From: Epinephelus fuscoguttatus
Taxonomy: Eukaryota; Chordata; Actinopteri; Perciformes; Serranidae
Length of the DNA stretch: 64,000 nt
Assembly: GCF_011397635.1 (NCBI RefSeq)
Contig: NC_064775.1
Location: 14,955,452 to 15,019,451, forward strand
Reading direction: 5' to 3'
Below, piece after piece: positions 43,801 through 49,753 of this stretch. The notes under the pieces were generated by a model that made no database searches, had not been told where the DNA came from, and worked only from the letters and a program-made list of their open reading frames with translations. The translations under genes were made by a program, and so were the position numbers. Position 1 is the stretch's first letter, and each line of letters starts with the position of its first letter.

Positions 43801-45920
43801 TCACAGCCATTGATCTTTGCTGCATTCACTGACATCTGCTTCTGTTTCTGTATTTTCTGTAGGATCTGGGTGTGCGAGTGGATACACACCTCAAGGTACA
43901 GTGATGTTGCTCTTGTGCTAATTTGAGACGGATATTAAAGCTGCATTAAGCACTTTTTGACCACTAGAGGGCAGAGACACACCTTATACTGCTACAAGTT
44001 AAACACAAGAGTTAAAGATGTAGTTTGGTCCACCAGCTCTGACGTGACCTGATGTTTGAAACTCAAACTTATTAAAGTGATAAAGTCACATTCTCTTTTC
44101 TTGTTTCTCTTGCAGCCACCCAAAAAAAGCCCAGAAAATGGTGAGTCCAGATTAAGAAACCTCATTTCAGCTGAGCTCTTTGTGAATCAAGCTTTTCTTT
44201 CTCTTCTTTCTCGCTCACAATGTTTTATCTGCAAAGGACCCTTTGATATCTGATATCAGACTTTTACAAGCAGAATTACGGAGCATAAATGGTCCCAAAA
44301 TAATAATTACAGCATGAACAGTACGTTCAAAGACAAAAAGAAAGACTGTGAACAAGATATTTAAGATTAAAGAATACATTTTTTAGAACATATATTGTGG
44401 ATAGAATATTGACACTCACACTCAAAGTCTTCTGCTATGTCAAACATAAGTGCTGAAAATGTGTGAGTCAACAAAATTCTGTCTGTCAGGTCCTCCAGAG
44501 AAGCCACCAATGCCTCCCACAATCACACAGGTAAAATATTCTTTGGTTTTGTTATGTCATTATGAAAAGAATCATTAAAGCTGCAACAATGACGAGAAAA
44601 GTTCAACTGGTTTGCACATTTTTTTGTACTGAAATTGAGCTGTGTGTTAAATTTGGTCATTAAAAAGTAAGTCTTGTGTTGTAGCCTCGGCCCACAGCTG
44701 AGCTGGACCGATCAGGTGACCAGGTTTACCTTGGCGTCATGGCGATGGTGAAACAGGTGGTCCGGCTGAAGAATGATGTCAACACACTGCCAGCCTCTGA
44801 GTATCCCAACGCTGTCAAAGTAGGTTGTTTGAGGAAGTTTCTGGTGCTAGACAAAAGGTCACGGACTAGGGTTGGGTACTGTTCACATTTAAACCCATAG
44901 TGGCACCAGTTACAGTACCTGGAATTCAGTTGTGGTACCCAAGTATACCCTTTTCAGTTCCTTACTTTCTCTGCTCTTTGATACTGAAATTTGGCACTGA
45001 TAGATTTAATGTGAATTGGTACTTGGTAGTACTGATGTAATTTGGTTGGTGCCCTTAAAAGTATCAAGTTTGGTACCTAAACATCTAATCATGGAGTGGC
45101 CAAAAAACTGAAAAGAGCTCATGCTCTGGGGCGTTTATATCTATTTACTAAATGTAATTGCAACCTGATCATTACATTTTTATTTGTCTTGTGTAAAGGT
45201 CAAATTTTTGTACATGTCTGTAGGTCTTAAACAAATACCCCAGTAAACTGAGAAATGGTAATCCCTTCCTTCTCCATCTCCTGCCCTCCTTCACTCTATC
45301 CTCCCTACTCTCTCCTGTTGTCTCATCCACCCTCAGACGGTTGGTATCACTCTCCGTAGCCTGATCCAAAGTGTTGACGAGATCCTGCCCTCTCTGCACA
45401 GCTCCATTACAACAGAGGTAGGCCTCACTTCTCTCTCTTTGCATGAGCTATTGTCTGTCTTCTTTATTTGTGACAGTGGACATAAATGCAGTCAATAGAT
45501 ATACTGTGGTTACTTAATTGGATATGGTACCTGCTAGTTCAAAGTTAAATGCTAAAATTTTCAAATCCAGTATCCTGCTCAGCTGAAGTTACTTACCAAA
45601 AAGAATTTCTTAATAACCTGGATAAACTGAACTTAAACCACACTGCTTAATGTGATCCTCGCTCCTCTCTGCCTCAGATCGAGGGCACTAAGAAATTGCT
45701 AAACAAGGATTTAGGGGAGTTGATCAACAAGATGCGACTGGCCCAGCAGAACTCCGTAACGTCGCTGAAGGAGGAATGTCAGCGGCAGATGCTGGCGGCC
45801 GCCCACACCCTGGCACTGGATTCCAAAAACCTGTTGGACGCTGTGGACCAGGCTCGAGTCAGGGCCAACCTGGCCAAGCCCAAACCTGCCTCACAAGAAG
45901 CAGAGGATCCTGGGGAATAA
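31849..45920 (+). CDS. ptk2b: Protein tyrosine kinase 2 beta (PYK2), 29 coding exons
   Basis: FAK-family non-receptor tyrosine kinase. Exons: 31849-32052, 33315-33493, 33610-33697, 33825-33904, 34010-34072, 34405-34459, 34611-34751, 34843-34914, 35126-35227, 35527-35644, 35968-36007, 36234-36259, 36420-36467, 37275-37369, 37465-37546, 40444-40544, 40715-40830, 40946-41046, 41232-41321, 41532-41736, 42401-42503, 42846-42893, 43450-43575, 43863-43895, 44116-44140, 44490-44530, 44685-44819, 45337-45417, 45678-45920. They total 2841 nt (946 aa). FERM is about 35-365; the autophosphorylation/Src-docking site SDIYAEIPE has Tyr394. Kinase about 413-690: GEGFFGEV loop 422-429, Lys447 (VAIK), HRD 536-538, DFG 556-558, activation-loop Tyr568/569 (EYYKAS), [10 protein letters not shown] proline-rich linker follows, then a FAT domain about 799-935. 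The start MSGD matches the PYK2 N-terminus; an in-frame ATG at 31813 lies in a GT-rich run. PYK2 rather than FAK by the N-terminus, HWLHP and linker. Any upstream non-coding exon is not identified. Confidence 0.96.
32380..32905 (-). mobile_element. LINE reverse transcriptase fragment in ptk2b intron 1
   Basis: On the minus strand, 32643-32903 encodes a reverse transcriptase stretch with the catalytic-type motif [11 protein letters not shown], then [10 protein letters not shown] and IRSLLS. The continuation to about 32380 matches the usual C-terminal part, with frame breaks. Truncated at both ends and inactive. It lies antisense in the first ptk2b intron. Confidence 0.8.
36577..37260. mobile_element. 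Foldback (long inverted repeat) element in the ptk2b intron before exon 37275
   Basis: The left arm (36577 to about 36800, with TAGATTGTTTTGGTGTGAG, AGATGTCTGCCTTCTC, GGCTTGTGGTGTTTAAAG) is the imperfect reverse complement of the right arm (about 37040-37215). The right end CTGTCCCTTTAA matches the TTAAAGGGACA terminus of the copy at 1180. Non-coding. It ends about 15 bases before the acceptor of the next ptk2b exon. Confidence 0.85.
37547..40443 (+). other. ptk2b: Largest ptk2b intron (2.9 kb)
   Basis: Between the kinase exons carrying the VAIK Lys and the helix-C/hinge region. Contains repetitive-looking text (ATCAGG and GGATCA motifs at 38.95-39.65 kb; a GC-richer block at 39.89-39.99 kb) but no gene I can support. 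Confidence 0.6.
43586..43637. repeat. (CA)n microsatellite after ptk2b exon 43450-43575
   Basis: CA/GACA run starting about 10 bases after the donor of ptk2b exon 23. A TG run (43427-43448) sits immediately before the acceptor of the same exon, so this exon is framed by complementary dinucleotide repeats. Confidence 0.95.
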
Positions 45921-46046
45921 AATCCCCTGTTGATCAAATGGACTTTAAAAAAAGGACATGAAATTTGGGTCGAATTATAAGCGGATGAGTTACTGTTTTC
46001 ATGCCAATGACAAGATGTGATAATATATTTGTTTTTTCTCCTAAAA

Positions 46047-46052
46047 AATAAA
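46047..46052 (+). terminator. ptk2b: ptk2b poly(A) signal, proximal (copy 1)
   Basis: AATAAA lies 127 bases after the ptk2b stop. It has an exact counterpart at 48478-48483 in copy 2. A more distal AATAAA lies at 46942-46947, just outside the TIR element. The proximal one precedes the element and is probably the ancestral signal. Confidence 0.55.
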
Positions 46053-46068
46053 ATCATGTTAACTTGAA

Positions 46069-47767: not shown

Positions 47768-48351
47768 ACGGTTGGTATCACTCTCCGTAGCCTGATCCAA
47801 AGTGTTGACGAGATCCTGCCCTCTCTGCACAGCTCCATTACAACAGAGGTAGGCCTCACTTCTCTCTCTTTGCATGAGCTATTGTCTGTCTTCTTTATTT
47901 GTGACAGTGGACATAAATGCAGTCAATAGATATACTGTGGTTACTTAATTGGATATGGTACCTGCTAGTTCAAAGTTAAATGCTGAAATTTTCAAATCCA
48001 GTATCCTGCTCAGCTGAAGTTACTTACCAAAAAGAATTTCTTAATAACCTGGATAAACTGAACTTAAACCACACTGCTTAATGTGATCCTCGCTCCTCTC
48101 TGCCTCAGATCGAGGGCACTAAGAAATTGCTAAACAAGGATTTAGGGGAGTTGATCAACAAGATGCGACTGGCCCAGCAGAACTCCGTAACGTCGCTGAA
48201 GGAGGAATGTCAGCGGCAGATGCTGGCGGCCGCCCACACCCTGGCACTGGATTCCAAAAACCTGTTGGACGCTGTGGACCAGGCTCGAGTCAGGGCCAAC
48301 CTGGCCAAGCCCAAACCTGCCTCACAAGAAGCAGAGGATCCTGGGGAATAA
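47768..48351 (+). CDS. ptk2b: Duplicated ptk2b terminal FAT exons (copy 2)
   Basis: Exons 47768-47848 (27 codons) and 48109-48351 (80 codons plus stop) repeat the last two ptk2b exons with intact splice sites (CCCTCAG acceptor, GAG-GTAGGC donor, TGCCTCAG acceptor). They encode the same C-terminal FAT residues, including [20 protein letters not shown] and the ending EDPGE. All junctions are phase 0, so exon 44685-44819 could splice to either pair with the same protein result. Copy 1 has its own stop and poly(A) signals upstream, so use of copy 2 would need read-through of those signals. No promoter or start for an independent gene is visible. Confidence 0.85.
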
Positions 48352-48499
48352 AATCCCCTGTTGATCAAATGGACTTTAAAAAAAGGACATGAAATTTGGG
48401 TCGAATTATAAGCGGATGAGTTACTGTTTTCATGCCAATGACAAGATGTGATAATATATTTGTTTTTTCTCCTAAAAAATAAAATCATGTTAACTTGAA

Positions 48500-49317
48500 G
48501 TGGACCTATTATGCTTTTCCTTATTTTCTGTGAAATATATATAATGTTACAATATCGAATGTTTATATTAAACATGGCCAAAGTTTCAAAGAATGAGGTA
48601 AATGAGCTTTCTCAATACGTTTTTTTTTTTTTTTTTTTTTAGAAAATTTGGCTACAAGCTGATGTCAAATCATGACAGATTTCTTTTTGGTCATCTGCTC
48701 CAGGCATGCTATTGCGAGCGTTTAAATCACATACACTGCTACATGTGAATGCCAGGGAAATGTAATAGTTTTTGCAGATGCTGTTAATTTTCCCTGATTT
48801 CAGATCACATTCCCGCTGGAGCATGTCCGGTTTGTGGATATAGAAGCTTTAATTGGTGATTTTTCACAGTGGAGAGTGCTGCTGTACTCCATTCCCCCAG
48901 CTGTAAGTACACCGCTACATGTAGCTACATGCTAACGTCAGGGAAACATGTAATCTTGGTTCCTAATGTTCTTAATTTCTCCCTGATATTGGATTATATT
49001 TCTGCCGTAACATGTCCAGTTGTGAAGATTTTGGTTTACAAGATTTTATTGGTGATTTTTCACAGTGAAAAGTGCCGCTATTCTCAATTACAGTCGTTCT
49101 CCGGCTTCAAAGACAGTGCAGAGCCACCGAGATATGGAAGACCCAGAAACGTGGACCAGTCAGAGCAGACTGGGCTTGGTCAGGAGGAGGCCCTAAAAAG
49201 GAGTGTTTCAGACAGGGGTGAATACAGGTGTTCCAGTACAGACAATATGGGGAAAAAGAGCTTTTTGGACATTAAAGCATATAAAGACAAACCTAAAAGT
49301 GAGCATAATAGGTCCCC
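48500..49317. mobile_element. TIR element, copy 2
   Basis: Same element as at 46069-46884, carried along by the tandem duplication. Its left terminus has one substitution (GTGGACC for GGGGACC). Confidence 0.7.
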
Positions 49318-49753
49318 TTTGTAATGAGCACGCCTTGAAGCTGAACAAATCAAACTACCACATTGTATCAAAGCAATAAAGTTTATATATATATTATCCT
49401 TTTTTAAAAAAAATCTTTTTACTATTAAAGACATTCTGCACTTTTGTGTTCTTTTGTGTCATAAGACAAGAAATACTTTGAACAGGTCATGACTGCTTTT
49501 TCTGCACACAGTACGATTTAATTGTAGGTGAGACTTCTGTTCTTGCACCTTCAATAATGAGCTTGAACATAAGAGAAAACATTTCCAGTAGCTACACGAA
49601 CATGATGTGAGTGCTGGGAATGATGTGCCCACAGTTGCATCAATACCATGATCATGTTCTGGCAAAATCTGAGCCGAAGGTAGGTTTAAAAGTTGTGTTG
49701 ATATCAGGGTGAGTCTGTTCATATGTATAAGGTGGGAGTCTCTCAGATGTATA

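Follow-up and report, generated by a model that had tools for sequence, protein, structure and literature searches.

Two near-identical copies of the 3' end of ptk2b stand side by side on contig C24 of a 1.047-Gb genome assembly (26 contigs). Are they a real tandem duplication or an error of assembly, and what would a second copy mean for the encoded protein? We analysed a window of 64,000 bases, in which self-comparison yields, as its longest match, two direct head-to-tail copies with 98.89% identity over 2432 alignment columns:

44897-47320, plus strand: duplicated unit, copy 1 (self-comparison and alignment)
47321-47327, plus strand: junction bases CATTTTT, between the copies (alignment)
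47328-49753, plus strand: duplicated unit, copy 2 (self-comparison and alignment)

The unit is ~2.42 kb long and comprises a portion of an intron, the two final exons and 3' flanking sequence of ptk2b. A sequence-only reading of the window had proposed two nearly identical 2.42-kb copies, joined head to tail through seven bases, and the self-comparison bears out both the arrangement and the near identity. Tandem Repeats Finder, whose longest period is 500, does not reach a pair of this size. The copies differ by 13 substitutions (10 transitions and 3 transversions) and 7 indels.

Gene identity and ancestral copy number

The coding parts that bear on the question are as follows:

44685-44819, plus strand: last unique FAT exon before the duplication, 135 nt, phase 0 (translation, splice sites and Focal_AT match of the spliced product)
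45337-45417, plus strand: penultimate coding exon, copy 1, 81 nt, 27 residues, phase 0
45678-45920, plus strand: coding part of the terminal exon including the stop, copy 1, 243 nt
47768-47848, plus strand: penultimate coding exon, copy 2, 81 nt, identical to copy 1
48109-48351, plus strand: coding part of the terminal exon including the stop, copy 2, 243 nt, identical to copy 1

An AG acceptor precedes each of the four duplicated exons, a GT donor follows both penultimate exons, and every length is divisible by 3. Exon 44685-44819 spliced to the duplicated exons encodes one complete Focal_AT domain (Pfam, 2.1e-58, all 133 profile positions); against PDB, the spliced FAT product scores best with PYK2 chains (187.8 bits vs. 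141.4 bits for the best FAK chain); and a FERM_N_2 match (33303-33548) and kinase matches (40767-41051 and 41474-41746) lie upstream on the same strand. These matches support identification of the gene as PYK2 (ptk2b) of the vertebrate FAK family, the name proposed in the sequence-only reading, which was also right that exon phases are 0 throughout and that each copy holds a complete FAT end with its stop and poly(A) signals. AATAAA occurs three times per copy: copy 1 has it at 45916, where it overlaps the stop, and at 46047 and 46942; copy 2 has it at 48347, 48478 and 49375. Upstream of ptk2b and in opposite orientation, SH3, RhoGEF67_u1 and CH domain matches on the minus strand (19134-26884) suggest an ARHGEF6/7 (PIX) gene.

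A search of the same genome with the three-exon FAT protein gave nine matches with all 23 candidates scored. Five lie at the ptk2b locus and two on contig C11; C8 and C17 contribute one apiece, both weaker and probably belonging to FAK genes. Within 9.9 kb of C11, the paralogue has one clear match per exon in the same order. The first two exons match over their full length, at 60% and 63% identity; the third, at 84%, matches from its start through 68 of its 80 residues. As the three exons occur once each in this paralogue, one copy is probably the ancestral state. The gene set and the genome size suggest a bony fish as the source. Two PYK2 genes in a fish would be nothing unusual: for zebrafish, the part of PMC1570463 available to us gives two predicted ones, and for Takifugu a single annotated one. 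Our literature search, judged partly from titles, found no duplication of ptk2b exons in a fish, and no relatives were confirmed in GTDB genome contigs or IMG/VR viral contigs, as expected for a vertebrate gene.

A DNA search of the genome with copy 1 returned 102 pieces, counts that are lower bounds with 40 of 3500 candidates scored: two full-length matches, both at the ptk2b locus; 99 pieces in the part of the unit that carries terminal inverted repeats (TIR); and one piece of 92 bp.

Junction and divergence of the copies

As assembled, the junction is more than a plain join of the unit ends: it carries seven extra bases, as do some end-joining junctions. The 11-mer TACATTTTTAT, which spans it (47319-47329), is repeated at 45173-45183 (base 277 onward in unit coordinates) and again at 47604 in copy 2; a match of at least 11 bp on either strand arose in 0.6% of 1000 shuffles (first 604 bases) and in 2% of 300 shuffles (most of the unit), and the match itself is A+T-rich, short and found post hoc. 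By eye, ATAG is common to both outer ends of the pair, and ACATTT to the junction and the left flank. The 11-bp match and the ATAG are what a check for the microhomology or templated insertion of theta-mediated end joining brought up. Alternatively, the copy may have begun slightly further left and then lost or changed bases, an outcome that would look the same as an insertion.

We considered an origin mediated by a transposable element. Beside the left breakpoint lies GTTGGGTAC, which we take to be reminiscent of dispersed fish repeats; a 92-bp piece from the left part of the unit has an 87% identical match on contig C1; and in the window the stretches 44840-45130 and 46900-47320 match only themselves and copy 2. 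The origin that seems most likely to us is end-joining or replication-based repair, which would have added the few bases at the junction. Tandem duplications of ~100 bp to 10 kb with junction microhomology and occasional templated insertions are described, in the part of PMC8654963 at hand, from C. elegans without HELQ-1, being rare in the wild type. The ptk2b unit resembles these, as that part presents them, in its size, its head-to-tail order and its extra junction bases with a possible nearby template; it differs from the HELQ-1 material described there in being a single natural case. The partial duplications at tandem loci of Drosophila yakuba, as set out in the portion of PMC5460883 that we consulted, likewise place part of a gene beside itself; unlike those, the ptk2b copy is a 3' end downstream of a complete gene, and a chimera with a new promoter would not be expected.

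The substitutions amount to a divergence of 0.54% (13 of 2418 ungapped sites). If neutral change is assumed to run at 2e-9 to 1e-8 per site and year, this would correspond, very roughly, to ~0.3-1.4 million years; a difference between alleles is also a possible source. None of the 13 substitutions falls within the 324 coding nucleotides, where ~1.7 would be expected. We considered purifying selection on copy 2 as a reason for the identical coding parts: as the chance of finding no coding substitution is 0.15, the identity is no evidence of selection.

The direction of change could be assessed in the TIR element of the 3' flank, which the sequence-only reading had rightly described as common to both copies:

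46067-46886, no strand assigned: TIR element, copy 1, ~820 bp, 18-bp perfect arms; related pieces on many contigs
48498-49319, no strand assigned: TIR element, copy 2, G-to-T at 48501 in the left arm; start set by the register of copy 1

Six other genomic loci with the element (L003-L008) were compared. At 48501, where copy 2 has T, all four informative loci have G; at 46434, copy 1 lacks 6 bp where all 15 aligned pieces, including some aligned to internal repeats of the element, have bases; and the states are mixed at 46242 (G in two loci, A in two) and 46292 (T in three, G in one). Each copy thus looks to carry at least one derived change, the 6-bp deletion in copy 1 and the G-to-T change in copy 2, a pattern as compatible with two alleles as with a real duplication. 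Directly downstream of the duplication lies an inverted pair of ~470 bp at 90.5% identity (50649-51111 and 52015-52487).

Real duplication or assembly error

The sequence-only reading had left two explanations side by side, a very young duplication and a false one made by the assembler. Both find support, and the added evidence leans to the former: the duplication is probably real, because N is absent from a span of at least 189 kb, the junction holds extra bases, and the exons occur once each in the C11 paralogue. The balance of the sequence evidence favours an ordinary young partial tandem duplication of the 3' end of ptk2b.

That the assembler laid two haplotypes of one 2.4-kb region consecutively is, by our estimate, unlikely. 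Haplotypes placed in tandem would yield similar copies, since 0.54% divergence is also possible between alleles, and single-nucleotide differences and small indels confined to non-coding parts are the pattern expected of two alleles. Errors of this kind, including false exon gain, are documented in the portion of PMC9516828 that we consulted, and the false heterotype duplications described there share with the ptk2b pair adjacent, near-identical copies with SNP-like differences. The ptk2b copies differ from those cases, as that portion presents them, in having no gap between them and in having extra junction bases, which a plain join of the two ends would not give. The same portion reports that incorrect gap filling can produce a gapless false junction. 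No N occurs in the window, in the 100 kb to its left or in the 25 kb to its right (at least 189 kb in all), and thus none at or near the junction; a run of 66 N that starts at window coordinate 89386, ~40 kb right of the duplication, may be an assembly gap or a withheld stretch. Also against such an error, the surrounding 264 kb (megablast, plus strand) hold no other head-to-tail pair that reaches both 1 kb and 97% identity. The remaining matches of at least 200 bp and 90% identity in these 264 kb all lie right of the window: a minisatellite on C24 (97901-99613 in window coordinates; ~42-bp shifts, 90-93% identical) and a pair ~4.5 kb apart, with pieces of 720 bp at 92% and 334 bp at 99%. Read depth would have to be interpreted with care: in the consulted portion of PMC9516828, a genuine tandem duplication specific to one allele is reported at haploid read depth, so half depth by itself would not prove an artefact.

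Expected transcripts and neighbouring features

Taken as a whole, the locus is probably best explained by a real, young 2.42-kb partial tandem duplication that arose by end-joining or replication-based repair, leaves the protein unchanged and has a mostly idle copy 2. In the expected transcript, exon 44685-44819 would be joined to copy 1 and the 3' end would form at the poly(A) signals of that copy, so that the encoded PYK2 is the normal protein. Copy 1 comes first and is a complete 3' end, equipped with a stop and AATAAA signals; copy 2 is therefore probably idle, and would persist as a promoterless, drifting duplicate.

It is very improbable, in our estimate, that a real duplication also puts copy 2 to use, either as an alternative 3' end or through a splice from 45417 to 47768 by which the 27-residue exon would appear twice within the FAT bundle. 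Phase 0 at all boundaries and intact splice sites permit such forms by frame arithmetic; two stretches of the mixed peptide match Focal_AT; and the repeated exon covers, by our own count on the human sequence, the position corresponding to PYK2 R918, which the available part of PMC5818605 places at the H2/H3 interface with leupaxin LD1. Any use of copy 2, however, would require read-through of copy 1, with transcription continuing beyond its poly(A) signals, and the mixed form would further require skipping of the copy 1 terminal exon; the nearest difference between the copies lies 73 nt from a splice site (45264 to 45337), so nothing observed favours copy 2. We see only a slight chance that the duplication is fixed or segregating with some transcripts joining both penultimate exons, in which case PYK2 would gain a repeated second FAT helix and possibly altered paxillin or leupaxin binding.

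The pair calls for caution in annotation, as automatic pipelines might report an additional ptk2b-like fragment or a spurious isoform from it; if real and polymorphic, it would illustrate clearly how a 3' end is duplicated, with a junction that can still be read. Further downstream, the plus strand holds an open frame of 299 residues from stop to stop (56544-57443), with no Pfam match at 0.001. At 53943-55565, inverted repeats of ~286 bp (97% identity) flank, on the minus strand and in two frames, an HTH_Tnp_Tc3_2 match and a weak DDE_3 match below the cut-off; judged by these features, the segment is a mariner/Tc1-like element.
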